Assembly: GCF_007754425.1 (NCBI RefSeq)
Contig: NZ_CP037452.1
Span: 5,493,164 to 5,557,163 of the forward strand
Origin: Gimesia fumaroli
Lineage (GTDB): Bacteria; Planctomycetota; Planctomycetia; Planctomycetales; Planctomycetaceae
Reading direction: 5' to 3'
Length of the DNA stretch: 64,000 nucleotides
Part shown: positions 1,908 to 47,535 of the stretch, piece after piece
Numbering within the stretch: the stretch's first letter is position 1
How the letters are laid out: the number at the start of each line of letters is the position of its first letter
The notes under the pieces: generated by a model
The model's database searches: none
Told to the model about the DNA's origin: nothing
The model's input: the letters and a program-made list of their open reading frames with translations, nothing else
Made by a program: the position numbers and the translations under genes

Positions 1908-3251
1908 TCAGACGAGTTCGGGCATGGCTTTGTACTGGTTATTGTCAACCAGATAACGCGGGCGTCCCTGGAGGTCGGTGACGGTGGTGGTTTCGACGTC
2001 GATGCCCAGATTGTGATACAGGGTGGCAAAGACTTCCTGGAAATGCACGGGACGGTCTTCTGCGTATTCACCCAGTCGGTTGGTGGAACCGATGACCTTA
2101 CCGGTTTTCATGCCCCCCCCTGCGAGCAATGCAGTGGAAACACGAGGCCAGTGATCGCGGCCTGAGTTCGCATTGATTTTGGGGGTTCGACCAAATTCGC
2201 CCCAGACAACGACGGTAACGTCGTCGAGCATGCCGCGATGTTCGAGGTCTTCGACGAGGGCCGTGACACCCTGATCCAGCATCGGCATGTCTTCGCGACC
2301 GCGTTTGAAGTTTCCGCCATGCCAGTCCCAGCGACTGAAGGCAAGTGTCACACAACGGGCACCGGCTTCAATCAGACGGCGGGCGGTGAGGAAATCATCG
2401 AGAAGTTTCGGTCCACCATCGGCGCGAAGCTGTTTGGTTCCCCGGCCATAACGATCGCGAAGCTGTTGATCTTCTTTGGAAAGATCGAGCGCGTCGGCGA
2501 GTTTGCTGGACGTGAGAATTCCAAACGCCTGCTGCGTAAAGGAGTCGAGGCCTTCCATCATGCCAGAAGCATCGACGTTACTACGGAACTGATCGAGCGA
2601 GCGGAGTACGTTTTTGCGGTCATCAAGCCGGTCCAGAGAAATCCCATTCAGCGTCATGTCAGCCATGCCTTCACCGTTCGGTCGAAACGGTGCGTGTGCC
2701 AGCCCCAGAAAGCCGGGGTCTCCTGCACGAGCCCATTCCATGTGCCCCATCTTGGGAGACAGGCCGAGGAACGGGGGAATCGATGGATCGACAACGCCGT
2801 ATTTCTTAGAAAGAACCGAGCCTAAGCTGGGCCATCCCCCCAGAGGCTGATTATTGAAACGCTGACCTGTCAGACATTGAAAGGCGTCGTGTCGCCCATC
2901 CGAACCGACCATGGAACGAATGAAGGCAAACTTGTCGGCCATTTGTGCCATGCGTGGAAACTGATCACCGATTTCAATGCCGGAAACGTTGGTTTGGATT
3001 GCGTTGAATTCACCACGAATTTCGCTGGGGGCATCCACTTTAATATCCCACATATCCTGGTGGGGTGGACCTCCCGGCAGGAAGATCATAATGATGCCTT
3101 TATGTTGTTTGCGTTTCGGAGCTGCTGCTTCTGCCTGCAGGATTTGAGGAAGCGACATGCCGCCTAAAGCGAGACCACCGATTGAGAGAAAGTTTCTACG
3201 AGTAATCTGATCACAAAACTTACTTTTTTGAGAACCCAGGATATTCAACAT
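1908..3251 (-). CDS. DUF1501 domain-containing protein, Tat-exported
   Basis: A 447-residue DUF1501 protein, related to the alkaline phosphatase/sulfatase superfamily fold. The N-terminus has a twin-arginine signal ([15 protein letters not shown], residues about 18-32) followed by a short hydrophobic stretch. Conserved features include [15 protein letters not shown] near residue 54, [20 protein letters not shown], and the C-terminal [23 protein letters not shown] block typical of the family. Start ATG at 3251 is preceded by GGAGA. In planctomycetes such genes often follow DUF1549/DUF1553 cytochrome-like genes, but none is next to this copy. The biochemical role of the family is not established; periplasmic location is inferred from the signal. 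Confidence 0.93.
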
Positions 3252-3388
3252 CGTGTCAGGTCTCCAAATTCAAAACGGTGGGAAGAGTGATGGTGGGCGA
3301 GACTGGCAGAATCCATCCTTCTGTGAGAATCTGAACAGCCTTATCATTAAAATATCGGCGAACCTTAATATTATAGTATAGACGTTTT

Positions 3389-4129
3389 TTATTGGAAATC
3401 CAGCGCAGATTGCAAGACATGAACGATTTGTTCAGTAAAAGAACCCGTTCCAGACAGGTCCAAACGCGGCAAAACAGGGAGTAAATCCCCATTGGGGGCC
3501 GAATACGGAGCGCCTAGCCAGGCAATCAGTGTGGGTTCTTCTGCCTGGGGAACTTTTTCGGTTAATTCCCAACAGGTAAAGACGACATCGGGATACTGCG
3601 CTTTGAGGCCGTCAATCAGTGCTGCTGCCTCGTCAGGAGGAAGACCTGCGATAGAAAAAACAAACGGCCGTTTCAGTAAACGCTGCCGGAGTTGTTTGAT
3701 CGTGATTTGTTTCTGTGGATGCAGAACATCGGCGGCGATTTCAGTTAACGGATCGAGCACGAAGCGACGGTACCAGAAGGCAGGATGGGGGATGAGCAAA
3801 CCCGCTGATTCAAGAATGAGCTGGTCGTACAGCAGCAGATCCAGATCGAGCGTACGGGCACTCCAGCGGACTTCGCGAACGCGGCCCATTTCCGTTTCGA
3901 CCGCTTGCAATTCTGCCAGCAATGCTTCCGGTGAGAGACTGGTGGAAAGATGCGCGGCCCCGTTGAGGAAGGTGGCATCGGTTTGGCTGCCGACGGGCGC
4001 GGTTTCAACCCATTGGCTTGTCTCTATCAGTGCGATTTCAGGATGCTGATTCAGACGCTCCAATGCCTGGGAGAATGTTTCCCGGACATTTCCCTGATTT
4101 CCTCCCAACGCGATATAGCAGTCTGGCAT
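3389..4129 (-). CDS. folK: 2-amino-4-hydroxy-6-hydroxymethyldihydropteridine pyrophosphokinase, C-terminally extended
   Basis: HPPK transfers pyrophosphate from ATP to 6-hydroxymethyl-dihydropterin in folate synthesis. The first 150 residues or so hold the family signature: YIALGGNQGN near the start, the substrate-loop region around WVETAPVG, and RWSARTLDLDLLLYD with its magnesium-binding Asp pair, then IPHPAFWYRRFVLDPL. I placed the start at 4129 because homologues begin just before YIALG; in-frame ATG codons up to 4177 would add 16 residues. The protein is about 246 residues against a usual 160, so roughly 90 extra C-terminal residues follow the catalytic domain. That tail contains SIAGLPPDEAAALIDGL and I do not recognise it. 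Confidence 0.92.
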   Translation of the reverse strand: MPDCYIALGGNQGNVRETFSQALERLNQHPEIALIETSQWVETAPVGSQTDATFLNGAAHLSTSLSPEALLAELQAVETEMGRVREVRWSARTLDLDLLLYDQLILESAGLLIPHPAFWYRRFVLDPLTEIAADVLHPQKQITIKQLRQRLLKRPFVFSIAGLPPDEAAALIDGLKAQYPDVVFTCWELTEKVPQAEEPTLIAWLGAPYSAPNGDLLPVLPRLDLSGTGSFTEQIVHVLQSALDFQ

Positions 4130-4296: not shown

Positions 4297-4467
4297 TTAG
4301 CCGTGGTTTTGTAATTCCGTCGTCGCATTTTCGAATAAGGCGTTCGTCTTCGTTCCGACAGCGGCGATGGCAGCAAGACAGACCATCACAATGGCAGCCA
4401 GCATCACTGCGTATTCGACTGCGGTGGGACCATCTTCTTCAATGAGCAATCTTTTTAGAAATTGCAT
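4297..4467 (-). CDS. Flp/Fap-type IVb pilin
   Basis: A 56-residue pilin. The protein begins MQFLKRLLIEEDGPTAVEY and continues into a single hydrophobic helix (AVMLAAIVMVCLAAIAAVG), then a short polar tail ending NHG. The G-x4-E-Y motif (Gly13, Glu18, Tyr19) is the prepilin peptidase site of Flp pilins; cleavage after Gly13 would leave a mature peptide of about 43 residues. AAGGG stands eight bases before the ATG. Family knowledge: Flp pilins polymerise into tight-adherence (tad) pili. No tad assembly genes are nearby, so this is an orphan copy whose machinery must be elsewhere if it is used. Confidence 0.9.
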   Translation of the reverse strand: MQFLKRLLIEEDGPTAVEYAVMLAAIVMVCLAAIAAVGTKTNALFENATTELQNHG

Positions 4468-4861
4468 TTCAACAACCCTTACGACAAATGGCAGTCTGAA
4501 TTTGCCTGTCTGGAAAAGAATGAGTGGTGAATAGACGAAATCTCTTCAAGAGAGCGCACTCCGACTCCCTTTAGATAAATCTATCTCACGTTTGACAAGG
4601 AGATCCGTAAAAACTGGAAAAGTTGTCCTAAATTTGGAAATTTGCGGATCAGATACCGGTATTTTCCAAGGGAATTAGAAGGATTGACGGTTGGGAGTCT
4701 GTTCAGACTGGCATATTCGACGGTCCCCTGTCACAATAAGCAGAACAGATTTTCTCCGGCTGTCGATCCCTGTTTGGTCAGGAACAGTCAGGAGTTAGGT
4801 TTATGCGAATTGTTTCGCTTATTCCCATTTTTTGAACTTTATTGGATAGGATACCATTGTT
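4468..4861. other. Intergenic region upstream of infA and the Flp pilin
   Basis: A divergent gap of about 390 bases that should hold the promoters for the pilin (minus) and infA (plus). A TTGACA occurs near 4593 on the plus strand, but I find no well-spaced -10 partner for it. No gene or RNA fold is evident. Confidence 0.5.
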
Positions 4862-34992: not shown

Positions 34993-35988
34993 ATGGATAC
35001 AAAAGTTGCAATTTTGGGTGGTGGAGGGATGGCAACTGCCTGCGCAACGTTGCTCACGGAATCTTCAGAGATTGATGTTTCCATGTGGGTTCGCAAACCT
35101 GCTGTCGCGGAAGATCTGAGAACACACCGTGAAAACAAAAGATTGCTCCCCGGCGTCACATTTTCCGAAACCATCCATGTGACGTCAGACATTGATGAAG
35201 CAGTAGCAGACGCCGATTTTCTGGTGGTGGCGATTCCCACCGAATTTCTGCGTGCCGCTTTGCACACGCTGGCGCCCCATCTCCAGAATGGAACTCCCGT
35301 CATCAGTGTGATCAAAGGAATTGAAAAAGAAACCTTTTATCGCCCCAGTGAAATTATCGCCGACGTACTGGGCCCCCGCCCTGTTGTCGCATTGGGAGGC
35401 CCTAGCCATGCGGAAGAAATCGCCCGCCGTCTGCCGGCCAGTGTTGTCGCTGCCAGCGGTGACATTCAGCTTGCCAAACAAACCCAGAAACTGTTCAGCA
35501 CAGAACGATTTCGTGTTTACACGAACGTCGATATTGTCGGAGTCGAATTAGCTGGCGCATTAAAGAATGTGATTGCGATCGCTGCCGGCATCTGCGACGG
35601 AGGCAAATACGGTGATAATGCCAAGTCGGCGATCATGACCCGTGGTCTGGTGGAAATGAACCGCTTCGGTTCGGCACTGGGTGCGGAACCGGCTACCTTC
35701 TCCGGACTGGCTGGCGTTGGCGACCTGATCACCACCTGTATGAGTCCGTTTGGCCGCAATCGAAGCTTGGGAGAACGACTGGGACAGGGAGAAACCCTGG
35801 ACCAGATTATCTCCAGCATGGATGCGGTCGCAGAAGGGGTCAATACCACGCGAAGCGTATACGACCTCGCCGATGCGAAAGGACTCGATATGCCGATCAC
35901 CACGGAAATCTACCGTGTTCTGTTTGAAGGCAAATCGCCGGACGATGCAACGCAAACATTAATGACACGCCCCCAACGCGAAGAATAA
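34993..35988 (+). CDS. gpsA: Glycerol-3-phosphate dehydrogenase [NAD(P)+]
   Basis: A protein of about 331 residues that reduces dihydroxyacetone phosphate to sn-glycerol-3-phosphate, the backbone of phospholipids. The nucleotide loop ILGGGGMATACA is at the N-terminus; VSVIKGIEKETFYRPSEII, VVALGGPSHAEEIARRLPASVV and the catalytic-lysine region VELAGALKNVIAIAAGICDG follow, then GLAGVGDLITTCMSPFGRNRSLG. Length is typical. ATG 34993 begins right before the Rossmann strand; ATG 34975 would add six residues. Confidence 0.96.
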   Translation: MDTKVAILGGGGMATACATLLTESSEIDVSMWVRKPAVAEDLRTHRENKRLLPGVTFSETIHVTSDIDEAVADADFLVVAIPTEFLRAALHTLAPHLQNGTPVISVIKGIEKETFYRPSEIIADVLGPRPVVALGGPSHAEEIARRLPASVVAASGDIQLAKQTQKLFSTERFRVYTNVDIVGVELAGALKNVIAIAAGICDGGKYGDNAKSAIMTRGLVEMNRFGSALGAEPATFSGLAGVGDLITTCMSPFGRNRSLGERLGQGETLDQIISSMDAVAEGVNTTRSVYDLADAKGLDMPITTEIYRVLFEGKSPDDATQTLMTRPQREE

Positions 35989-36097
35989 TTTTCCCGGCAA
36001 TGTGTGAGATACATTACATCGCGTTAGGAGCGTCTTAGATACCTTACACCTTTGAAGCTCTCGAAATTGTCATTCACACCAACTCAGGAGTCTTTCC

Positions 36098-37387
36098 ATG
36101 CGATTCTCTGGACTGCTTATTACTTCCCTCATGGTTTCCCTGTCATTTTCTTCTCTCGCTCAGGCAGAAACCTGGCCGCAATTTCGCGGTACAAACGGCA
36201 GTGGAATTTCCACTGAGAAAAATCTGCCCGCGAAATGGTCTGAGCAAGAAGGAATCCTCTGGTCTGCCTCATTACCTGGACGTGCCAATTCCTCTCCCGC
36301 AGTGACCGCCAATCGGATTGATGTCACCACGAAAACCGATGATAACGGACTGTGGATTCTTTCATTTGATCGCAAAAGTGGTCAGGAAATTCGCAAAGTC
36401 AAGGTCGGCTCCGGATCGTTGTCAGCTCCGGGACCACGTAATCTGTGGGCCGACCGTCATAACTCAGCCACCCCGTCTCCCATTTCTGATGAGCAGAATA
36501 TCTGGGCTTTTTTCGGTACGGGATTGCTGGTCTGCCTGGATGCGGAGTCGGGAGAAATTGTCTGGAAACGAGATCTGGTCAAAGACTATGGACCTTACAA
36601 TATCACCTTCGGCATGGGGTCAACACCGCGGTTGTGGGGAGACCTGTTAATTGTCACCTGCATGACCAAAGGCCCCTCTTATGTCGTCGCTTTTGATAAA
36701 CAAACCGGAAAAGAAGTCTGGAAAGCCAATCGGAAATTGCCCGCTCAAAAAGATGGTGCCGACGCCTACACAACGCCCACCATTTTTCAGAACGACGACA
36801 AAACCGAACTGCTGGTTTCCGGTTCCGATCATGTGAATGCCTACGACCCTCAAACGGGAAAACAGCTCTGGATTGCCGGCGGTCTGGATATTCCCAGCCC
36901 GTTTGGCCGGATCATCGCGGCCCCTGTAGCGAATGCAAATCTTGTGATTGCCACATCGGGGAACCCGGGTGGCGGCGGACTGGGATACATCAAAGCATTC
37001 AAACAAGGTGCGACAGGTAATATCACCCAATCCGGCCTGTTGTGGAAGTATGATGTTTCCACTCCCGATTCTTCGACTCCCCTGATTCTGAACGGCAAAC
37101 TTTATATGGTGAGCCAGAATGGAGTCGCGACCTGCCTGAATTTGCAAGATGGCAAATCGCTCTGGAAAAAGCGGATGAAGGGACAATACTTTTCTTCATT
37201 GGTCGCCGGTGATGGAAAAGTCTATTTCCTCAGTACCGATGGACTTTGTACGGTGATTGATGCTGACAGCGGAGAGGTCATCGCTGAAAATCAATTACCG
37301 GGTACGTTCTATTCCACTCCTGCAATTAGTGAAGGAGTCATCTACCTGCGTTCCTTTGATCGACTTTACGCCATCAAAGGCAAATAA
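36098..37387 (+). CDS. PQQ-like beta-propeller repeat protein, secreted
   Basis: A 429-residue protein with a signal peptide (MRFSGLLITSLMVSLSFSSLAQA) and repeated beta-propeller blades of the PQQ/YrrP type. Blade endings repeat the pattern of Asp/Gly-rich turn then W-K or W: LDAESGEIVWKRDL, FDKQTGKEVWKANR, YDPQTGKQLWIAGG, LQDGKSLWKKRMKG and IDADSGEVIAENQLPG. The first residues after the signal, WPQFRGTNGSGISTEKNLPAKWS, match the start of many planctomycete outer-membrane-biogenesis BamB-like proteins. No PQQ-binding catalytic residues are identified, so a structural or binding role is likelier. AGGAG precedes the ATG. Confidence 0.9.
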   Translation: MRFSGLLITSLMVSLSFSSLAQAETWPQFRGTNGSGISTEKNLPAKWSEQEGILWSASLPGRANSSPAVTANRIDVTTKTDDNGLWILSFDRKSGQEIRKVKVGSGSLSAPGPRNLWADRHNSATPSPISDEQNIWAFFGTGLLVCLDAESGEIVWKRDLVKDYGPYNITFGMGSTPRLWGDLLIVTCMTKGPSYVVAFDKQTGKEVWKANRKLPAQKDGADAYTTPTIFQNDDKTELLVSGSDHVNAYDPQTGKQLWIAGGLDIPSPFGRIIAAPVANANLVIATSGNPGGGGLGYIKAFKQGATGNITQSGLLWKYDVSTPDSSTPLILNGKLYMVSQNGVATCLNLQDGKSLWKKRMKGQYFSSLVAGDGKVYFLSTDGLCTVIDADSGEVIAENQLPGTFYSTPAISEGVIYLRSFDRLYAIKGK

Positions 37388-37397
37388 GAAAACAGAG

Positions 37398-37435
37398 GCC
37401 CCTTCTGGAACGAATTCAGAAGGGGCTTTTTCTTT
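37398..37435 (+). terminator. Rho-independent terminator
   Basis: A perfect ten-base GC-rich stem (GCCCCTTCTG and its complement) with a nine-base loop, followed by a T-rich run, just after the propeller gene. Confidence 0.92.
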
Positions 37436-37471
37436 TCTACGCGATTTAATTCTTAGCAGATCGCAGCCTCG

Positions 37472-38917
37472 TCAGGCACGACCGGCAAGTTCTGAAATCG
37501 CATGCCCTTGTGCCACTATCGGCGTAGGACGTCCTGTAAAATCCGGCAGGAAGGTGTTAGCATAATCGATGCCCAGATGAGCATAGATTGTCGCCAGAAA
37601 ATCTTGTGGGGTCACGGCCCGTTCGACAGGCCCCTCTCCTTTTGGATCGGTGGCTCCAATCACCTGTCCGGTGCGAATGCCTCCACCGGCAAACAGCATC
37701 GAAGCGGCTCGCGGCCAATGATCGCGACCGGGCTGCCTGGTTCCCGCGCTCCCACTGGCTATCCCTGCCCCGGTGCTCTTCGCGTAAGAAATCTTGGGCG
37801 TACGACCGAATTCTCCCGCGACAACAACGAGCACGCGCTCATTGAGACCACGATCATAGATATCTTCAATCAAAGCTGTCACTGCCTGATCAAAATAGGG
37901 AGCGCGATATTTAAGGGCGTCAAAGACATGATGATTTACAGCGTGATCATCCCAGTTTCCCACTCGACCGCATAACGGGCCGGACAATTCCGTGGTGATA
38001 ATCTCCACGCCCGCTTCGACAAGCCGCCGCGCCATGAGACATTGCTGCCCCCATTGATGCATTCCATAACGATCTCGTACGTTTTGTGGCTCGCGGGTTA
38101 AATCGAAGGCTTCGGCCGACTGTTTACTGGTCAACAGACTGCTTGCCTGCGACTCAAACTCATCCATCGCCCGCATTTCCCCTTCCAGGTCCAGGTCGCG
38201 GCGTAAGTGATCTAATTTTTGACGTAAGGAAATTCGTCTGGTAATCTGCCGCGTTTCCTGAATATCGGAGAGCCCGATGTTAGGAACCTTAAAGTCCGGT
38301 TTGCTCGGATCCCCCTGAATCTGGAACGGTCCTGCGCCCGGCCCCAGATAAGTCGGGCCGGCGATCTGAAAACTATCGTAGTTTGTAATCGCATTCACGC
38401 CGATGTAGTTCGGCAGCACGCTTTCTTTTTCACGCCTCAGATAATTGGCGACCGACATGAAATCGGGCAGCTTCGGCTTCTGTTTATCGATCCGATCTTT
38501 GTCGCCTCCAAGCACTTGCAATGAGCCGGCAGGATGTCCGCCACCAGTATGCGTGATCGAACGCAAAATCGAAAACTTATCGGAAATTTGAGCATGACGC
38601 GGCAACAACTCGCCCAGGAACATGCCCTCGGATTTGGTCGCAATCGGAGAAAAAGGGCCCTTATATTCCGCAGCCGCTTCCGGTTTGGGATCATAGGTCT
38701 CCAGGTGACTGATTCCGCCACGACACCAGACCAGAATCACCGCAGTACGTTCTTTGGCTTTCTTTGTCGCATTAGCCGCCTGTAATTGATACAGCCCCGG
38801 CAAGGAAAGGCTTCCGAACCCACCCAGGCCGAACTTCAAAAATTGACGCCGTGCAGCTGCATGCTTCTGCAACTTTGAGCTCTGCTCTGATGACTGATTC
38901 TGCATATCGTCAACCAT
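37472..38917 (-). CDS. DUF1501 domain-containing protein, Tat-exported
   Basis: A 481-residue DUF1501 protein, distinct from the copy near 2-3 kb. A Tat signal is visible around residues 22-48 (ARRQFLKFGLGGFGSLSLPG). Family blocks: AVILVWCRGGISHLETYDPKPEA, SILRSITHTGGGHPAGSLQVLGGD, and the C-terminal [15 protein letters not shown] and GRDHWPRAASMLFAGGG. Here the family is longer in the middle (LRQKLDHLRRDLDLEGEM). It converges on the PQQ propeller gene. Function is unknown; a periplasmic hydrolase-like role is speculative. Confidence 0.92.
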   Translation of the reverse strand: MVDDMQNQSSEQSSKLQKHAAARRQFLKFGLGGFGSLSLPGLYQLQAANATKKAKERTAVILVWCRGGISHLETYDPKPEAAAEYKGPFSPIATKSEGMFLGELLPRHAQISDKFSILRSITHTGGGHPAGSLQVLGGDKDRIDKQKPKLPDFMSVANYLRREKESVLPNYIGVNAITNYDSFQIAGPTYLGPGAGPFQIQGDPSKPDFKVPNIGLSDIQETRQITRRISLRQKLDHLRRDLDLEGEMRAMDEFESQASSLLTSKQSAEAFDLTREPQNVRDRYGMHQWGQQCLMARRLVEAGVEIITTELSGPLCGRVGNWDDHAVNHHVFDALKYRAPYFDQAVTALIEDIYDRGLNERVLVVVAGEFGRTPKISYAKSTGAGIASGSAGTRQPGRDHWPRAASMLFAGGGIRTGQVIGATDPKGEGPVERAVTPQDFLATIYAHLGIDYANTFLPDFTGRPTPIVAQGHAISELAGRA

Positions 38918-39572
38918 GATTCCTAACGAATATTCTTTAGCAGCGAGATGAGCCGCCCCTGCTGATTACATCGGAATTATAACATATGTCACCAGACCGT
39001 GTCTAACACGCAATAGAAGGATTCTGGCCGGATTGCGTTTTCCAATCATTGAGATCACCTGAATCGTTTCATTTTATCACGATCCATATTCCATCCAGCT
39101 CAATTAATAAGTTCCCTGGAACGGAGCATCACCCCTGCAGCTGAAAAGTGCTTTCTAAGGATTTCAAACAATATCGATTGATTCAGACAATCTCTCAAAG
39201 TGCTTCCCGTCCGGTCAGGATCGACAGTCCCCCATCCTGCTAGGGATTGAATAAAAAAAGCCTCAATCCAAAAAAAATGAAACGGCACGAACTGGAATGC
39301 TGAAAGAATCAAACTCTCTGATACATAACAGATTAGATTATTCAGATCTGCGACTCAGCTGCATTACCGATATGCCGACAGTAAGGAAAATTGGACCTCG
39401 TTATAATTTTTTAATTGACTGATCGTTTTGGACAGGTAATATGAACCGACAAGCACCATGTCGTTCACTAACAACATCTGAATGTTTTGCGGCTAGAACA
39501 CACTTAAACCATATCACATGTGTATCTATCGCCATCACAGACACTCGTTGGACGCAGGTAAGGAGATTTCAC
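38918..39572. other. Regulatory gap before the radical SAM cluster
   Basis: About 650 bases between the DUF1501 gene and the first gene of the radical SAM cluster. It contains the promoter at 39415-39442 and a leader of about 120 bases. A 70-residue minus-strand frame at 39100-39312 has no convincing features. Confidence 0.55.
39415..39442 (+). promoter_or_regulatory. Predicted sigma70-type promoter of the radical SAM cluster
   Basis: TTGACT, a 16-base spacer and TAATAT, placed about 130 bases before the first start codon of the cluster. The -35 matches the consensus at five of six positions. No other comparable promoter was noticed before the downstream three genes. Confidence 0.6.
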
Positions 39573-40598
39573 ATGGCTCTTTTCTCTCATCGCTTCTCGC
39601 ATCATTTATGGATTCTCTGTCTTACGAATGCGTTTGCCTTCTTTTTTATCGCCGATGTTATGCCCGCCGCAGATAGCTTAGAGATGAGCCAGGAGGAGCG
39701 CAAAGAATGGAAAAGCTCTCCCAAAACAAAGGAGGAGCTTGATCCGCAGACGCGAGAACAATACGAAAAACTCAGAGCAAAGCTCTCTGAGGCCGAAAAG
39801 GAATACGACCAGCTCAAACAAAAGACTGCTGCCGAAAATGAGTTGCTCGAAACCGCATACCGTTTACGACAGGAAGCCAGTGCCACCGAACAACAGCTTA
39901 AACCGGCAGCAAAACAGGTGAAAAATTATTTCAAGCGTTTTAGTGGCGGATCGCTACAAAACCAGAATCAATTACGAAACGCATTCACCAAGCTTAAAGA
40001 ATATGAATTCTTCACCGAGATGGAAAACAACCCCGTCTTCCGTCCCTATGTTCTATTCTTTGCCAGGCAAATGATTTTAGAACTTCAAAATTCTTCGCAG
40101 TCTGGAAACAAACGATCCGATTTCGTACAAGATCTGCTCCCGCAGCCGGATGCAAAAATCACAGAATCGCAAGCGCTAGAAATTTATCTCAAGATTTTGG
40201 AACGTTATAAGGACCAGGCACTAGCCAAGGTTGGCAACACATCCAATTTTGATCAACTTCTTCCCTTCGTTCAGGAATACATCGAAGCGAAAGTCAAGAA
40301 CGACTTCCAGTTTCTCATCTGCGACACTTACTATCGCTTGAATAAACCGGTTTCTGAATCGGTAGCCAAGCAGAACATTTCTGAATTACATCAGCAACTC
40401 TCAGAGGTCTGGCCTCGCTGGCGATGGGCCGAAGCTCCCGAAGAAATTCGGAATCCCCCAAATCAGCGCGGAAACCTGAATGCCATGAACGGCGATTATC
40501 GCTGGTGGCTGCTGATCGTAAATATTGCTGTCATCGTGTTGCTGATCGGCGTGTTGATAATCCGTCGTCATCTGCGCGAACGTGGCAGTCATGTGTGA
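39573..40598 (+). CDS. Membrane-anchored coiled-coil protein of the radical SAM cluster
   Basis: A 341-residue protein starting at ATG 39573, preceded by AAGGAG; the frame extends upstream to 39441 but without a ribosome site. A signal-like segment (HLWILCLTNAFAFFFIADVMPAA) opens it. Residues about 35-125 are a charged coiled coil (YEKLRAKLSEAEKEYDQLKQKTAAENELLE), the middle is helical (NPVFRPYVLFFARQMILEL), and a C-terminal transmembrane helix WWLLIVNIAVIVLLIGVLII is followed by basic residues. Most of the protein is therefore predicted periplasmic. It is the first of four co-oriented genes, 38 bases before the next. I do not recognise a family; it may anchor or receive the exported product. 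Confidence 0.78.
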   Translation: MALFSHRFSHHLWILCLTNAFAFFFIADVMPAADSLEMSQEERKEWKSSPKTKEELDPQTREQYEKLRAKLSEAEKEYDQLKQKTAAENELLETAYRLRQEASATEQQLKPAAKQVKNYFKRFSGGSLQNQNQLRNAFTKLKEYEFFTEMENNPVFRPYVLFFARQMILELQNSSQSGNKRSDFVQDLLPQPDAKITESQALEIYLKILERYKDQALAKVGNTSNFDQLLPFVQEYIEAKVKNDFQFLICDTYYRLNKPVSESVAKQNISELHQQLSEVWPRWRWAEAPEEIRNPPNQRGNLNAMNGDYRWWLLIVNIAVIVLLIGVLIIRRHLRERGSHV

Positions 40599-40636
40599 TC
40601 TTAAGCTCTCTGCCTTTTTGATGAATGGAGGATGTG

Positions 40637-41596
40637 ATGGCTGCATTAGAAAATACGGACGTCAGTAATTCAGATGATGATACACTGTCACGTCGCCGTT
40701 TTATCCGGAAAGTTGGTGGGGCAACTTTTGCCATCACACTATTTGACATTGCGGATTTCTCAATGAATGTCGCTGCCGCAGCGGGCTGTGGCAGTGGCAC
40801 CAGCGATGCCGCCTGCAATACGGGAAGTCCGGCGACCCCCGATTCCAATTGCGGACAAACTGCCAGTCCTGGATTCAATACGAGTGGCCCGAATGGAATG
40901 GATCATGATGAAGCATGTTCGGCAACGGACAATGATGGCAACTGCCAGATGTCGCAACTCCCCAACGCCGGCAATGAAGTTGATGAAAACTGCAGTGCCA
41001 CCAGTATCGACGCCGATCAGAACTGCGGTGACTGTGACGACCATCACCAGACTGACGAGCATTGTTCAAAGGGGCTGGCCACAGGTGGGACAGATCCGGA
41101 CGAAATGTGCGGTCATCAGCACAATATCGGACTAGCTGAGGATCAAAACTGTAGTGCAACGGTTACCGACGTTGGTTGCGGGGTACATACAACCTCATAC
41201 GGAGGCACAGATCGTGATACTGACCAGCATTGTGTCGGAGGCAATGCTGATATGAATTGTGCCTCATCAGCCGGGGTAGATTCAAACTGTAATGCGTCGA
41301 CATTTCCTTCCAATACTTCGCCGGACGAACGCTGTGGGACCGTGGCAGGTGCCACGACGGATTACGACGCCGCCTGTAGTCATTACGACGCTGATGAATC
41401 CTGCTCTTCAACCTCGACTGATGAATCGTGTGGTACTTTTCCAGGACCATTTAACGACAACACGGACGAGCACTGTCCTTCACCAAGCCAGGATCAATCC
41501 GATGTGCCGAACGAAGGCCCGCTCAACCCCTGGTGTCCCAATACCGGTGATGCTGATTACTGGGATCCACCACCACCACCGCCACCTGGTGGTTAA
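40637..41596 (+). CDS. Tat-targeted Cys/Asp-repeat protein, candidate RiPP-like substrate
   Basis: A 319-residue protein starting at ATG 40637 (GGAGG five bases upstream). It begins with an acidic stretch and a twin-arginine signal: SRRRFIRK at residues 18-25, then GGATFAITLF. From residue 50 to 300 it has 21 cysteines, 18 of them in D-x-x-C, spaced about 8-20 residues apart (DAAC, DSNC, DEAC, DENC, DQNC, DEHC, DERC, DESC and so on), often followed by Ser or Gly. The rest is Asp, Asn, Ser, Thr and Gly with almost no Lys or aromatics. It ends in seven prolines and GG. It lies 73 bases before a radical SAM/SPASM gene. I infer a precursor whose Cys/Asp residues are modified; metal binding is the alternative. 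Confidence 0.82.
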   Translation: MAALENTDVSNSDDDTLSRRRFIRKVGGATFAITLFDIADFSMNVAAAAGCGSGTSDAACNTGSPATPDSNCGQTASPGFNTSGPNGMDHDEACSATDNDGNCQMSQLPNAGNEVDENCSATSIDADQNCGDCDDHHQTDEHCSKGLATGGTDPDEMCGHQHNIGLAEDQNCSATVTDVGCGVHTTSYGGTDRDTDQHCVGGNADMNCASSAGVDSNCNASTFPSNTSPDERCGTVAGATTDYDAACSHYDADESCSSTSTDESCGTFPGPFNDNTDEHCPSPSQDQSDVPNEGPLNPWCPNTGDADYWDPPPPPPPGG

Positions 41597-41669
41597 ACCA
41601 CCATTGTTTAGATCGTGTTTCAGTTTGCTTTGTATCCGAATTTAAATACCAGCGCCGGCGAGGGAACTT

Positions 41670-43430
41670 ATGCAACACCAAATCGATTGTACGTCAGAAC
41701 CCACTGGTTCTTTTTCCAGTTTAGAAGCGCTCGAGATTGACCCTCGTTCGTTTCATGTCTTCGAATATCAGGGAGACCGGCTATTATTTGATCGAGCCAC
41801 AGGTACTACATCGGGCCTGAACGATCTTGCGTTTACGGTCCTGCAACAGATCCAGGAAGGCACCCCCCTTCCGAAAACGATGGATGCGATCTCAGCGAAT
41901 TATCCAGATTTGGATGCAGCTGGTGTGTTACTGGCTTTGCACGATTTGAAGCAACGGGGGTTCTTTCGTTTTGAAGAAGCGCATCACGCGACAGAACAAG
42001 ACTTGGAATATCTCTGGAATCATAAGCCCCGTCGGATTCAAATGCTGATGGCCGAAGGGTGCAATCTTGGCTGCCGCTACTGTTATCAATGGAGGAACGG
42101 CACGAATCAGAAGCACACACTGATGCCATGGCCCGTTGCGAAACAGTCCGTCGATTATTTAGTCTGGCGATCTGGAAATCGCAACGATCTGCAAGTGACC
42201 TTCTTTGGTGGGGAACCGCTACTCAACTACCCCATGATCAAACGCGTGGTGAATTACTGTAAAACGATTGAGAAAACGTCGAACAAACAGTTCACATTTG
42301 AATTGATTACCAATGGGACGCTCCTCTCAGAAGATGTCGTTGATTTCATCGTCGAACATCGATTCCTCCTGTTTATCAGTCTCGATGGTTGGCGCGAAAT
42401 GCACGAATACAACCGACCGGCGATGGACGGACAAGGTTCATACGATACGATCGTCCGCAATGCTGTTTACGCAAATAAACAATACGAAAAACACAAACTA
42501 CCACTCATCAAGATCCGAGCCAACTTGACAAATCGATACCATGACAAGAAAAAAGTATCGCAATTCTTTGAAGAGTTGGGCTTCAAACTGATTGGCATCG
42601 GGCCGATTGAACCATTACCGCACGGCGATCCCTCTCCCGCCGCCCTGACCGAAGAACAGATGGACGCGCTGGCTGAAAAATCAGAACAGGATCTGCTGGA
42701 CGTTGTGGAAACCCTGAAAAGACGCGAACACGTCGGCCCCTTCGAAATGAGAAAACTTCATCAAGCCAGACGACCGCTTAAGAAAAATGGAACCCTGGGG
42801 GTCACTTGTGGAGTCTGCCGTAATACCACAGTCGTTGATAACAGGGGGAATATGTATCCCTGCCACCGTTATGGTGAAATGCAGGAATATGTCATCGGAC
42901 ATATTTCCTCCGGGCTCGATCGGGCTCTGGTCATGAAGTACTATCAGAAAATCAATGCGCATACCACGAAGGACTGTCACGACTGTTGGATTCGCGATTA
43001 CTGCTCCGGAGGATGTGCCTGGCTTCTTTCAGATAAAGAAGGCAACATTCACCACCCGACCAAAGCGGAGTGCACCCGACGCCGTAAGTCGATGGAACAA
43101 CGCCTCTGGCTGCGAAAAGATTTACGGGAAAATTTCCCAGGATGGATGGAACGCGACGAGGAAACTTCCATCGATAGTTGGGACTGGAATGAAAAATTCG
43201 CAGTGCCGGAAAAGTTCAGCAACTGCACTGAGGAAGAAGATTTAGCGGGAGTGCAGTTTGTACAACTAAGTTCTGGATTAAATCAACAGAACAACACAGC
43301 ATCTCCAGGCTGTTCTTCCTGCAGTGAGGCATCCTCTGGCAGCTGTGGTTGCAGCACTTCGTCTGAGGAAGGACAATTCGCCACACTGGTGCCACTCACT
43401 GATCCCAGCCTGAAAAACAAAAAGGAATAA
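41670..43430 (+). CDS. Radical SAM/SPASM peptide-modifying enzyme
   Basis: A 586-residue enzyme. Residues about 25-95 resemble the PqqD-like recognition element (FHVFEYQGDRLLFDRATGTTSGLNDLAF, then a helix-rich part). The radical SAM cluster is C-x3-C-x2-C at Cys131, Cys135 and Cys138; FFGGEPLLN (178-186) is the SAM-binding GGE region. SPASM cysteines for auxiliary clusters are Cys380, Cys383, Cys398, Cys436, Cys439, Cys445, Cys449 and Cys468 (CHDCWIRDYCSGGC). A tail from 540 has four more cysteines (Cys548, Cys551, Cys559, Cys561). GAGGG precedes the ATG. Family knowledge: such enzymes form thioether or C-C links in peptides. The partner is most likely the D-x-x-C protein upstream. Confidence 0.93.
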   Translation: MQHQIDCTSEPTGSFSSLEALEIDPRSFHVFEYQGDRLLFDRATGTTSGLNDLAFTVLQQIQEGTPLPKTMDAISANYPDLDAAGVLLALHDLKQRGFFRFEEAHHATEQDLEYLWNHKPRRIQMLMAEGCNLGCRYCYQWRNGTNQKHTLMPWPVAKQSVDYLVWRSGNRNDLQVTFFGGEPLLNYPMIKRVVNYCKTIEKTSNKQFTFELITNGTLLSEDVVDFIVEHRFLLFISLDGWREMHEYNRPAMDGQGSYDTIVRNAVYANKQYEKHKLPLIKIRANLTNRYHDKKKVSQFFEELGFKLIGIGPIEPLPHGDPSPAALTEEQMDALAEKSEQDLLDVVETLKRREHVGPFEMRKLHQARRPLKKNGTLGVTCGVCRNTTVVDNRGNMYPCHRYGEMQEYVIGHISSGLDRALVMKYYQKINAHTTKDCHDCWIRDYCSGGCAWLLSDKEGNIHHPTKAECTRRRKSMEQRLWLRKDLRENFPGWMERDEETSIDSWDWNEKFAVPEKFSNCTEEEDLAGVQFVQLSSGLNQQNNTASPGCSSCSEASSGSCGCSTSSEEGQFATLVPLTDPSLKNKKE

Positions 43431-43509
43431 TCTTCCCGTATCATTATTCTCCATACCACCCGGTATCGAGTACGTCTGATAGCATGATAGTAATATTGCT
43501 AGTGAAAAA

Positions 43510-44466
43510 ATGCAGAAGAATCGATCTGGTTTTCAGGTGTTCAAGACGTTCTACAGCTCTCGAAATCCCTGTGAACGATATTGTCATCTGTCACAAATTG
43601 CAGAAGGGGGGCTGGCATATATTTACCGGGCTTACGATCCGGAATCTGATTCCTGGGTAGCACTGAAAATACTGAAAAGCAAATGCGCCCGTTCGCGACG
43701 ATGCACACAGGCTTTTTGCCGGGAAATGTATCTGCTTTCTCTGTTCAAGCATGAAAACATTGTACCTTTCTTCGCAGGTGGTTTAACTGAAAACCACCTG
43801 CCCTTCTTAGCACTGGAATTGCTCGAGGGAGATACACTGAGAGAAGCGATTCGCGAGAAAACGTTTTCGGTTTCAGATGCACTCCCCATCATTCTTGATC
43901 TACTAAAGGCACTGACAGAGATTCATAAACACGAAGTCGTCCACCTGGATCTCAAACCCCAAAATATTTTCCTGACGATGAATACCAATGCGCCCTGCCG
44001 ACAATCTACGAAATTACTGGACTTCGGATCGTGTCAGGCAGCGACCAATTTACACTCGTGCCAACTTGACCCAACCTGGCTGCATCCCACTTATCCCGGA
44101 GCAACACCAGGTTATGCCTCGCCGGAGCAAATGGCACTCTATCTCTCTGGTAAGACTTCGCCCCTTGATCCTCGTTCCGACCTGTATTCGCTCGGTGTTG
44201 TCGCATTCGAAATGCTGACGGGAACATTGCCTTATCATCTGCCTCGGCGCAGAGACGATTGGCTCGATTCCCTAGAATATTTTGCCAGTAAAGATCACAA
44301 ACGTGTTGTGAGCAGTCTCCCAGTTCCCTTAAACCGCTTCATCGAAAAATGCTTCACTTCTGACCCTGAGCAAAGATGGTTCAACGCACATGAAGCAATT
44401 GATTTTTTAGAAAGATACCAGCAGACAACCTGCCAGCCAGATGCTTCGGACTATTCTCTTGGATAA
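43510..44466 (+). CDS. Serine/threonine protein kinase (Hanks type)
   Basis: A 318-residue eukaryotic-type kinase with no transmembrane helix. Glycine-rich loop IAEGGLAYIYRA (30-41), ATP lysine in VALK (Lys53), catalytic loop HLDLKPQN (145-152, Asp147), DFG (171-173), an activation segment leading to GYASPEQMALYLSG, and the APE-helix Arg near DLYSLGVVAFEML. It has no PASTA or sensor domain and stops soon after the kinase fold. It lies 79 bases after the radical SAM gene in the same orientation and before a convergent terminator, so it is the likely last gene of the cluster. Its target is unknown; Ser/Thr-rich cluster proteins are candidates. Confidence 0.93.
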   Translation: MQKNRSGFQVFKTFYSSRNPCERYCHLSQIAEGGLAYIYRAYDPESDSWVALKILKSKCARSRRCTQAFCREMYLLSLFKHENIVPFFAGGLTENHLPFLALELLEGDTLREAIREKTFSVSDALPIILDLLKALTEIHKHEVVHLDLKPQNIFLTMNTNAPCRQSTKLLDFGSCQAATNLHSCQLDPTWLHPTYPGATPGYASPEQMALYLSGKTSPLDPRSDLYSLGVVAFEMLTGTLPYHLPRRRDDWLDSLEYFASKDHKRVVSSLPVPLNRFIEKCFTSDPEQRWFNAHEAIDFLERYQQTTCQPDASDYSLG

Positions 44467-44486
44467 AAACGGGGTATCAAAAACAA

Positions 44487-44515
44487 AAGCCCCTGATCGA
44501 AGAAATCAAGGGCTT
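44487..44515 (-). terminator. Terminator for the small lipoprotein gene
   Basis: Arms AAGCCC(C)TGAT and ATCA(A)GGGCTT with a seven-base loop. On the minus strand the stem is followed by a T-rich run, so it serves the lipoprotein gene at 44537; it lies between two convergent transcripts. Confidence 0.75.
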
Positions 44516-44536
44516 AGATCAAAATAATGACTTGAA

Positions 44537-44857
44537 TTAAAGCTGTCCTGCCATCTGCTTCGCGATTTTCTTGGTTTGGGCCGGTGAAGAGGCGGCTTCC
44601 AGTTTTTCCAGATCGGAAAGCAGCTTGTCGGCTTTCGCAGCATCCGATTGCTTCAGACCTTCCAGTGTTTCACGAAAGCCCATCGCGGCACTTCCCATTT
44701 CGCCTGTTTGTGCAATCGATTCCAAAGCAGTTTTCATATCGGCTGTTGAAGTAATATTGTTCGTTTCAGCAGCGGCATCTTCACTACCGGCATCACCGCC
44801 TCCACAGCCCACGCAAGTCATGACAAACAGCATTAGAATGGTCGGAATTGCTTTCAT
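44537..44857 (-). CDS. Small lipoprotein
   Basis: A 106-residue protein starting at ATG 44857 (AAAGGAC upstream). The N-terminus MKAIPTILMLFVMTCVGCGGG is a lipoprotein signal, the lipobox Cys being the one before GGG. The rest is Ala/Glu/Lys-rich and helical (MKTALESIAQTGEMGSAAMGFRETLEGLKQSDAAKADKLLSDLEKL). No motif is recognised. An upstream in-frame extension to 44911 has no ribosome site. Confidence 0.8.
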   Translation of the reverse strand: MKAIPTILMLFVMTCVGCGGGDAGSEDAAAETNNITSTADMKTALESIAQTGEMGSAAMGFRETLEGLKQSDAAKADKLLSDLEKLEAASSPAQTKKIAKQMAGQL

Positions 44858-44963
44858 CGTTCTGGTCCTTTTTCGATCGGAAGTTAGTTGATTGATAACA
44901 TATGAGTTCACTCAGGCCCACTTATCTCTGTGAACAGTCTGTGGAACCAGCAGAAATGGGATT

Positions 44964-45003
44964 AAAAAAAGAGCGAAACTCATTATAACGAGAATCGCTC
45001 TCT
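44964..45003 (-). terminator. Terminator of the first DUF1559 gene
   Basis: Arms AGAGCGA and TCGCTCT flank a larger loop, followed on the minus strand by a T-run. A near-identical element ends the second DUF1559 gene, consistent with duplication of the gene with its terminator. Confidence 0.8.
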
Positions 45004-45033
45004 TAAAAAACTTAATCGTTCAAATTATTCGGC

Positions 45034-46029
45034 TTACCATTCGCCAACGGTTTCTTCGCCTGAAGTTGAACCGAGAGCCTGCCAGAGGGTTGTGTCAATA
45101 TTATCGCTGGCAAAACGGACAGAACCGTCGCCCATCAACACATGCGCGCCGCCAGTATGACGACTGCGGGCAGCCCAGACTCCAGCCGAATCGTACCAGC
45201 CACAGCCGGTACAAGGATGACAGTCCGGGTTGGGTGTGTTGGGTACGTTCAATGTATTGAAGACAGTTTGGCCACCGATACCATTCATCCATTCGCGTCT
45301 CACGTGACTGTGAGTATTGGATGTCCCTGTCAGACACTGAGTCCCATAGGCATCCAGATTTGCCTTAGACACAAAGCTTCGTTCAGAGAACGGGAAAGAC
45401 TGAGCACGGACTAAATCGGTCTTTACATTAAACTTGCTACCGGTATTGTCACCCACGGTACTTTCACTGGCAGCAATCGTATTCGATGTACCATCCAATA
45501 CGTCTCGGATGCGTGTTGGCTTGCTGAAGTTAAACATACCAACCTGGTCACCCTGACCGACACGCCAATACATAGAGGGACCAGCACTCACCACATAGTT
45601 ATTGCCAGTGTCTCCGCCGGGCCATTTGAGATCTGAGGGACACAGGAACGCTGGAATCACTTCATTGTTCAACGCGTTGTTTGGTGCCTGATCATACCGC
45701 AAATTCCAATCGATCTGATTGTAGATATTTGCCTGATCCATATAAGGCAGCATCAAAGCATGGGCACTCATACCCCGCCATGCGCAAGTTCCGGTACATG
45801 AGTCATGGATAGACGGAGCATCGGAAATCGGAAACATGCGATGCGCGTCATGATAGTTGTGCATCGCCAGACCAAGCTGCTTCAGATTGTTCTTGCAGGT
45901 GGAACGGCGGGCCGCTTCACGAGCCTGTTGTACGGCGGGAAGTAATAACGCAATCAGAATTGCAATGATGGCAATCACCACCAGCAATTCGATCAACGTA
46001 AACCCCCGTTGTCGAACCAGTCGCTTCAT
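45034..46029 (-). CDS. DUF1559 pseudopilin-like protein, copy A
   Basis: A 331-residue DUF1559 protein. The N-terminus [35 protein letters not shown] is a type IV prepilin/pseudopilin signal with prepilin peptidase site after Gly9. The extracytoplasmic domain has conserved [11 protein letters not shown] and [13 protein letters not shown], and the C-terminal H-X9-DG motif appears in [21 protein letters not shown] Cys-rich turn ([10 protein letters not shown]) is present. GGAGAG precedes the ATG. Planctomycetes carry many such proteins; their assembly role and export path are not settled. Confidence 0.95.
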
Positions 46030-46536
46030 AATACTCTCCTATAAAATTAGTAAAAAAATAATAAATTAGTCCGAACGGACACCTTATTTAATCCTCGGAT
46101 CGGTATCCCTGACTACTTTATAGAATATATCATCAATACGATATTAGCCCATAACAGGCATTTTTAGCAACTTATGATTGCTCTAAATAACTGGTTCAGA
46201 AGCATCTTGAATTAGTTAACAAAACATAAAATTGAATTTCAGCCAATTCGAATCAACGCAGGTACACTGAACAGCTTCCTCAAAGCGCTCTGCCCTCATT
46301 CGTTCATCACATGCATTTTGAATCTGATTTCTGAAAAGTTGGCTTTCAGAGCTCCGCAAGAAGTGCGATCATCAATGTGAGCGTTGATGAAGTCGAATCA
46401 CTAAAGAACTCATGCCAGATCGCATCATGTCCTTCCTTGAGACTCGTTCCAGAGAATGAAGAAGCGCAAAAAAAGAGCGAGACTCATGCAACTGAGAATC
46501 GCTCTTCTGAAAAACGTAAGGTTCAATTCAGCTGGT
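46030..46536. other. Gap between the two DUF1559 genes
   Basis: About 507 bases, AT-rich near 46030-46240. It holds the terminator of copy B (46468-46506) and should hold the promoter of copy A. No gene is apparent. Confidence 0.5.
46468..46506 (-). terminator. Terminator of the second DUF1559 gene
   Basis: Stem with outer arms AGAGCGA and TCGCTCT and inner arms ACTCA and TGAG around a short loop, then a seven-base T-run on the minus strand. Confidence 0.88.
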
Positions 46537-47535
46537 TTACCATTCGCCAACCGTTTCTTCTCCGGCAGCAGAACCAAGAGACTGCCAGATCGTGAAATCG
46601 ATATTATCGCTGGCAAAACGGACAGCGCCGTCTCCCATCAAAACATGCACGCCGCCGGTATGCCGACTGCGGGCAGTCCAGACACCGATCGAATCATACC
46701 AGCCACAACCAGAACAGGGATGGCAATCCGGGTTCGGTGAGTTGGGTACGTTTAAAGTGTTGAAAATGGTCTGGCCACCGATGCCGTTCATCCATTCCCG
46801 ATTCACATGACTGTGCGTATTGGTGGTTCCCGTCAAACATTGTGTCCCATAGGCATCCAGATTTGCTTTGGAAACAAAACTTCGTTCTGAAAAGGGAACA
46901 GCCTGAGCACGAACCAGATCAGTTTTGACATTGAATTTACTTCCGTTGTTATCACCAACGGTACTCTCGCTCGCCGCGATCGTGTTGGATGTTCCATCTA
47001 GCACATCGCTCACACGAACAGGCTTGCGGTCATTAAACATTCCGACCTGATCTCCAAAGCCAACCTTCCAGTACATGGATGGACCGGCACTGACGACATA
47101 GTTATTTCCCGGATTCCCGTCTGGGTACTTTAAATCGGAAGGACACAAAAATGCAGGAATTACTGTATTATCCAGCGTATTATTCGGTGCCATATCATAG
47201 CGAACATTCCAGTCGATCTGATTGTAGACGCTCGCCTGATCCATATAAGGCAGCATCAAAGCATGGGCACTCATGCCGCGCCAAGACCAGCTTCCTCCGG
47301 TACCTGAATCATGTACCGACGGTGTATTTGAAATCGGAAACATTCCATGTGCGTCATGGTAGTTGTGCATCGCCAGCCCCATCTGCTTCAGATTATTCTT
47401 ACAGGTAGAACGGCGGGCGGCTTCACGGGCCTGTTGAACGGCGGGAAGTAATAATGCAATCAAAATTGCAATGATGGCAATCACCACCAGCAATTCGATT
47501 AACGTAAAACCACGTGGTCGCATGAGGCGCTTCAT
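46537..47535 (-). CDS. DUF1559 pseudopilin-like protein, copy B
   Basis: A 332-residue paralogue of the neighbouring DUF1559 gene, roughly 85-90 percent identical by eye, including the prepilin N-terminus, the [11 protein letters not shown] and [13 protein letters not shown] blocks and the H-X9-DG tail. Differences cluster at residues 65-95 ([23 protein letters not shown]) and around 130-165. The tandem arrangement with matching terminators indicates a recent local duplication. Confidence 0.95.

Follow-up and report, generated by a model that had tools for sequence, protein, structure and literature searches.

The window analysed here is a 64,000-nucleotide stretch of the Gimesia fumaroli genome (contig NZ_CP037452.1, positions 5,493,164 to 5,557,163), and it contains a cluster of four genes that encode, in this order, a coiled-coil protein, a D-x-x-C repeat protein with a twin-arginine-type signal, a radical S-adenosylmethionine (SAM)/SPASM enzyme and a protein kinase. 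All four genes are located on the plus strand and are separated by gaps of 38, 73 and 79 bases. The enzyme and the repeat protein recur together in other genomes and, judged from sequence, are well supported as a putative enzyme-substrate pair.

The repeat protein (319 residues, 40637..41596) is the probable substrate. The longest open reading frame (ORF) opens at 40625, and the ATG at 40637, with GGAGG before it, is the preferred start. The N-terminal region (40637..40786) consists of SRRRFIRK, a hydrophobic stretch and AAAAG, and is reminiscent of the signals of the twin-arginine translocation (Tat) pathway, which combine the motif S/T-R-R-x-F-L-K with a moderately hydrophobic stretch; TatC is encoded in the genome. 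The region 40805..41476 holds 18 D-x-x-C motifs, which take up 18 of the 21 cysteines. When the letters past residue 45 are shuffled the motif occurs 2.66 times on average, and a count of 18 was reached in none of 5000 shuffles. Direct DNA repeats of at least 14 bases are absent from the motif region, which implies that the copies have diverged and that the motif is maintained at the protein level. Compared with a Verrucomicrobia homologue (L039, 43% identical; gapped positions are left out of this and the following counts), the motif Asp is conserved at 15/15 and the motif Cys at 14/15 positions, next to 10/33 of the middle x positions, 11/17 of the non-motif Asp residues and 49/153 of the remainder. 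The corresponding counts are 16/18, 16/18, 15/39, 12/22 and 48/198 for the homologue at locus L030, and 10/12, 8/11, 6/25, 5/16 and 22/118 for that at L138, where the alignment is poor. Downstream of the hydrophobic stretch the protein is strongly acidic (net charge -44). Searches of NCBIfam and Pfam (E up to 1) and of the PDB gave no match for it, none of ten substrates scanned against NCBIfam and Pfam scores over a family cut-off, and no fold is predicted for the unmodified protein (mean predicted local distance difference test, pLDDT, 38.5, from an alignment of six rows only). A stretch CGDCDDxH, at residues 134-147 of the longest ORF (40625-41596), is conserved in the window, L039 and L030 proteins; it departs from the D-x-x-C rule in having CxxC and is perhaps a separate site.

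The enzyme (586 residues, 41670..43430) matches the Radical_SAM model of Pfam with 66 bits (cut-off 29.5) and stays below the Pfam cut-offs for SPASM (19.4 against 21.5) and PqqD (12.5 against 23.4). The radical SAM motif CNLGCRYC (Cx3Cx2C, residues 131-138, 42060..42083) and seven SPASM cysteines (C380, C398, C436, C439, C445, C449 and C468, 42807..43073) are invariant across 27 enzyme sequences. In an AlphaFold2 model (27-row alignment, mean pLDDT 77.9) residues 28-95 (41751..41954) form an N-terminal domain of three strands and three helices, as expected of an RRE (PqqD-like winged-helix) domain. The tail past residue 497 is modelled with low confidence; the C-terminal tail (43158..43427) contains CxxC clusters and is similar in kind in the three closest enzymes, L039, L138 and L030. 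The nearest solved structure by sequence is CteB (5wgg, E 1.7e-55, residues 28-482), followed by the anaerobic sulfatase-maturating enzyme, and CteB is also the top Foldseek match of the model (E 2.9e-27, template modelling score 0.80 by target length). With its N-terminal RRE, Cx3Cx2C motif, SPASM cysteines and adjoining candidate substrate gene, the enzyme has the features of the broad group of RRE-dependent maturases of ribosomally synthesised and post-translationally modified peptides (RiPPs). An earlier note on this DNA, made from its letters alone, had described four co-oriented genes with the above gaps, 18 D-x-x-C motifs behind a twin-arginine-type signal and a radical SAM/SPASM enzyme with a PqqD-like domain; the ORF list, the motif count and the sequence agree with the first two, and the Radical_SAM and CteB matches, the SPASM cysteines and the modelled domain bear out the third, the Pfam matches to SPASM and PqqD being below cut-off.

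Recurrence of the gene pair

The enzyme has a patchy distribution, as few genomes match it at any level searched (tallies of genomes here include the source genome). It was found in 2/59 near genomes (E 1e-30), in none of 16 congeners and, mostly as distant matches, in 18/392 genomes of the phylum (1e-40), and an enzyme profile matched 2/297 genomes of the class (1e-60) and 2/14 genomes of the order of G158 (1e-90). A search of IMG/VR viral contigs gave no confirmed homologue. Plasmid searches returned 40 records for the enzyme, all less than 60% identical to the query and short of 80% coverage of it, with 12 of the 20 matches listed annotated as peaB, and no plasmid match for the D-x-x-C protein.

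A scan of named genomes for relatives of the enzyme covered the best 80 of 538 relatives (590 stretches matched). Ninety-two enzymes were extracted, making 93 with L039, and 47 of these were used in the main tree after thinning of most QhpD-like rows and of L141, a broken copy; a quick tree of 104 rows (FastTree) adds the thinned rows and 11 distant matches, L118 being without an ORF. In the main tree the window enzyme falls into a supported clade of ten (99/97) from eight genomes of Planctomycetota and Verrucomicrobiota, referred to as the -3 clade after the position of Asp relative to Cys. The other members are L030, L031 and L032 (three copies in one genome), L033 (= L041), L034 (= L042, Planctomycetes bacterium Pla86, with the repeat protein in two copies), L039 (a Verrucomicrobia metagenome-assembled genome), L044 (= L143), L045 (= L144) and L138 (genome G687, sampled from the phylum of the Akkermansia genome discussed below). 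The sole additional class match (G945, L139) lies outside this clade. The enzyme gene of L039 (genome G432, approximately 2200-3825) is the one most similar to that of the window and is broken by two in-frame TAG codons and a frameshift, which could reflect decay, assembly error or recoding.

All ten members of the -3 clade have a D-x-x-C partner within about 0.8 kb of the enzyme, the repeat gene being located upstream in four loci and downstream in six, and the quick tree recovers the same ten members and none without a partner. In ten repeat proteins from nine loci Asp occupies position -3 for 123 of 139 cysteines and Glu for none; two repeat proteins found later have Asp at -3 for 10/10 and 13/14 cysteines. 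In the reverse direction, a profile built from nine D-x-x-C proteins detected eight genes in 5/392 phylum genomes, of which seven adjoin the enzyme. The eighth tells against the pairing: the protein, from G207 (76% complete), has 13 of 14 cysteines in D-x-x-C, and its gene is some 2.4 kb away from an enzyme-like gene (L153, 9749-10852) that contains the C-terminal part (query 325-513) and in which no Cx3Cx2C motif was seen. Gene damage, a misassembly or a genuine exception could account for this. The earlier note had named recurrence of the pair as a check of its proposal and a repeat protein widespread without radical SAM neighbours as grounds for giving it up; the pair recurs in all members of the clade, and the second condition did not materialise in the one phylum sample searched, where seven of the eight repeat genes stand beside the enzyme. 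It is thus very improbable that the two genes are neighbours by accident and that the partner of the enzyme is encoded elsewhere. The absence of the enzyme from the congeners would place such a partner among the genes particular to this genome, but the pairing extends over two phyla, in either gene order, and is also found in the reverse search.

Possible chemistry and related systems

The cluster probably makes and exports a polycyclic thioether protein through crosslinking by the enzyme. The RRE domain would bind the N-terminal region of the D-x-x-C protein, so that the twin-arginine-type signal may double as the enzyme leader. With the aid of SAM and of its SPASM clusters, the enzyme would then abstract a beta-hydrogen from each Asp and bond the beta-carbon to the Cys sulfur three positions further on, so that as many as 18 small thioether rings would form. 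After crosslinking, the strongly acidic protein would be exported via Tat and retained in the periplasm or on the cell surface, with the coiled-coil membrane protein and the kinase as possible accessory factors.

The scores of the enzyme against known families are consistent with such a chemistry. The best NCBIfam models are PapB (253.6 bits, cut-off 340), SCIFF maturase (252.4, cut-off 425), Nif11 peptide maturase (237.1, cut-off 518.7) and QhpD (231.4, cut-off 453), and according to the papers cited in this section, on which the comparisons below also draw, three of these four (PapB, SCIFF maturase and QhpD) make thioethers, two of them between Cys and Asp or Glu. PapB and its substrate PapA, which give the Paenibacillus ranthipeptide freyrasin, resemble the window pair in the RRE-radical SAM-SPASM architecture of the enzyme and in the presence of several Cys-Asp pairs of fixed spacing. 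Freyrasin contains six links in C-x3-D motifs, from the Cys sulfur to the Asp beta-carbon, and PapB tolerates Cys-Xn-Asp with n from 0 to 6, while a term search of the text of that paper found no mention of the reversed order with the acid before Cys (PMC9413430). The PapA-type peptide of Paenibacillus locus L052 has 52 residues, Asp at +4 (C-x3-D) for 6/6 cysteines, an LKQINVIAG start and no visible export signal, in contrast to the 319-residue window protein with D-x-x-C and a twin-arginine-type signal, in which Asp at +4 is outside the four commonest offsets and C-x3-D/E is thus not the pattern. The L052 enzyme, as a positive control, passes the cut-off of the PapB family (NF047865) with 465.7 bits, and the window enzyme stays below it.

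QhpD and QhpC, a subunit that works in the periplasm, are a second system with a related enzyme and with Cys-to-Asp/Glu thioethers in a protein subunit. QhpC is a 108-residue substrate with three links of unequal spacing, Cys7-Glu16, Cys27-Asp33 and Cys41-Asp49, in which the acid follows Cys (PMC8172795). The idea that the enzyme is itself QhpD, within a system for quinohemoprotein amine dehydrogenase, draws on the QhpD score and has next to no chance of being correct: the score is far below the cut-off of the family (TIGR03906), no QhpC-like sequence occurs in a 19-kb region around the cluster (L155), and the enzyme belongs to a separate supported clade. A QhpC-like sequence is present in 15/15 tree loci labelled QhpC. 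The SCIFF maturase CteB, the best PDB match in sequence and in fold including the RRE, acts on a short six-Cys peptide (PMC8172795) and forms a Cys-Thr link (PMC8326336), unlike the window enzyme, which stays under the SCIFF maturase cut-off (TIGR03974) and adjoins the gene for a 319-residue repeat protein. In the NxxcA/NxxcB system of Streptococcus orisratti, Cys23 is joined to Asn20 at the beta-carbon (PMC8326336), and an acceptor at -3 is therefore possible. This system differs in that the acceptor is Asn, the link is single and the substrate is a RiPP peptide, and it is likened here by link geometry and not by enzyme comparison; NxxcA is a closer precedent for the Asp-before-Cys order than the enzymes cited in the earlier note.

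Several observations weigh against the proposed crosslinking and export. The enzyme is under the cut-off of every NCBIfam family listed, no Tat profile of NCBIfam or Pfam matches the repeat protein, and the acceptors of freyrasin and QhpC follow Cys (PMC9413430, PMC8172795) whereas Asp precedes it in the window protein. The suggestion of the earlier note that the protein is modified at Cys and Asp and exported folded via Tat is supported in part: it gains from the recurring pair and from the thioether-forming nearest families, and loses in that its cited precedents have the acceptor on the other side of Cys. A less likely possibility is that the pair is correct and the bond a different one, either from Cys to an alpha-carbon, as in sactionines, or from Cys to the Asp of a neighbouring repeat. 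The profile matches of the enzyme include the sactipeptide enzyme RumMC (146 bits), and Asp is also common at +6 and -5 in the window protein (8 and 7 of 21 cysteines), but the -3 offset dominates, +6 can arise from repeats that are nine residues apart, and PapB and QhpD link Cys to the beta- or gamma-carbon of acidic residues. Slightly less likely again, the D-x-x-C protein could be an acidic protein of the cell surface that binds metal or is rich in disulfides, with the enzyme acting on it in some other way, such as Cys oxidation or epimerisation. The charge of the protein and the anaerobic sulfatase-maturating enzyme as second PDB match would fit this explanation; a mere carboxylate ligand, however, would probably permit Glu, which is never found at -3, no metal- or calcium-repeat family matched the protein, and the sulfatase target motif CxPxR was not seen on reading it.

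Asp-Cys registers in related lineages

Related enzymes adjoin proteins, mostly with twin-arginine-type starts, in which Asp is found at other fixed offsets from Cys. Asp at -2 is found for 12/12 cysteines in L035 (cut by the contig end), 16/17 in L040 and 19/19 in L043 (Chloroflexi), 28/30 and 26/30 in L049 (Kiritimatiellae) and 29/32 in L051 (Akkermansia muciniphila CSUN-56), and weakly (4/7) in L048. Asp at +3 is found for 47/53 cysteines in L050 and 37/47 in L053 (Hydrogenedentota, L053 cut by the contig end). These two twin-arginine-type proteins (L050 7164-8408 and L053 7177-8604) have 414 and at least 476 residues, with 53 and 47 cysteines in repeating CxxD (for example CTSDKSGSC), beside a related enzyme. 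In the Akkermansia genome (G431, L140 7572-10098) the enzyme and a 348-residue exported-type protein with D-x-C at 29/32 cysteines are located amid secreted-looking proteins; this enzyme occurs in 1/40 genomes of the genus, in CSUN-56 alone.

The register labels were assigned from the dominant offset and not set in advance. On the main tree the register classes require four changes, the minimum for five classes, compared with 13-19 in 300 label shuffles, and without the QhpC class three compared with 5-9; because the shuffles ignore relatedness, these counts measure congruence and are not probabilities. The -2 enzymes belong to one supported clade of 12 (100/99) with six labelled rows, the other six being L136, L137 and four with small peptides that lack a dominant offset (L061, L067, L068 and L102), and in the quick tree the six -2 rows are grouped with seven unlabelled rows. 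Also unlabelled in the main tree are L036 and L057 (no clear partner found), L046 (four offsets tied), L139, which joins L078 on long branches of unsure placement, and L037, L038 and L142, which turned out to carry QhpC-like sequence, L038 partially. The four small peptides, from Verrucomicrobia, Lentisphaerae and one further bacterium, are 88-90 residues long and of twin-arginine type, with four cysteines and GKADQC, and are encoded beside a related enzyme.

By eye, the starts of the PapA-type L052 peptide and of QhpC proteins (LKPINQKAG in L070) are alike in pattern, the Hydrogenedentota proteins have LRRVNMLAG or LRRVNFVAA downstream of the signal, and the -2 proteins, several -3 proteins and L136 share a SHFxLL-like stretch near where the hydrophobic part ends. 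This suggests, and does no more than suggest, that the RRE domain may read part of the export signal. The L136 peptide (4437-4664) has 75 residues, is rich in Cys (CHTCQ repeats), keeps the stretch as SHFxLLG and is encoded 1.7 kb from a related enzyme.

There is an even chance that these proteins represent a class not described so far, scattered over Planctomycetota, Verrucomicrobiota, Chloroflexota and Hydrogenedentota, whose large exported members are made into chains of small thioether rings by radical SAM enzymes. Each enzyme lineage would fix its own register (DxxC, DxC or CxxD), which would amount to a readable code for the joining of Asp and Cys in both chain directions, and the Tat signal would serve as both export signal and enzyme leader. 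Points from the -2 lineage count against the proposed crosslinking and Tat export: the Cys-rich partner of L136 is without a fixed Asp, no partner of L137 was found in 14 kb, and RR is replaced by RG in the Akkermansia protein and by RK in L048. No description of such a system was found in the open-access literature; most subscription papers and all bioRxiv preprints were beyond the search, and one may exist elsewhere. In the comparison made here, the substrates of the known Cys-Asp thioether enzymes are short peptides or one small enzyme subunit. The proposed class would instead comprise exported ring chains that span 175 to at least 476 residues and, in the unambiguous cases, carry between 7 and 47 motifs; it would occur in a number of phyla that have received little study, as well as in a single strain of a human gut bacterium. 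With an Asp-Cys spacing particular to each lineage, the regioselectivity of the enzymes is open to direct testing, and ring-forming tools of defined size and direction would become available.

The accessory block and its surroundings

The cluster lies inside a block (39009..44484, plus strand) that was delimited by alignment with the nearest congener (G014, 85% identical), in which the sequences matching window positions 35002-39008 and 44485-46240 are located 45 bases apart. As the whole 5.5-kb block is absent from G014, its four genes behave together as a single accessory unit. In G008 both flanks are present without the block, at lower identity, and in G015 no alignment of the right flank was obtained at that place. 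The block ends display no terminal repeats, no 9-base words common to the edges and no mobile-element signature, and the GC content of 47.8% is close to the 48.5-50.6% of the flanks, with similar values at third codon positions. Without mobile-element ends and with an ordinary composition, an origin by transfer is unsupported, and loss of the block in relatives is possible.

By their position, both the coiled-coil protein and the kinase are part of the unit. The former (341 residues, 39573..40598) resembles a secreted or membrane protein with a signal-like N-terminus and a transmembrane-like C-terminus, and matches no NCBIfam or Pfam family above cut-off. The ORF list places its start at the ATG at 39441, and the ATG at 39573, with AAGGAG upstream and a signal-like start, is likelier. 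The kinase (318 residues, 43510..44466) is a predicted serine/threonine protein kinase (Pkinase, 139.1 bits). A comparison of 12 loci speaks against a general part for either protein in the system: in the remaining loci of the clade BLASTP detected nothing related to the coiled-coil gene, and ORFs resembling a kinase occur in L030 and L144 only, neither placed as in the window. L138 and L039 encode helical-looking proteins in nearby places, without detected similarity. A promoter at 39415, predicted by the earlier note, does not stand out from chance, five promoter-like sites being found on both strands of the region and 6.8 expected. Beyond the block, adjoining genes at 45034-46029 and 46537-47535 encode similar prepilin-type proteins, which we take to be of the DUF1559 family; the two are 85.8% identical, and both align in G014, with a single copy in G008.

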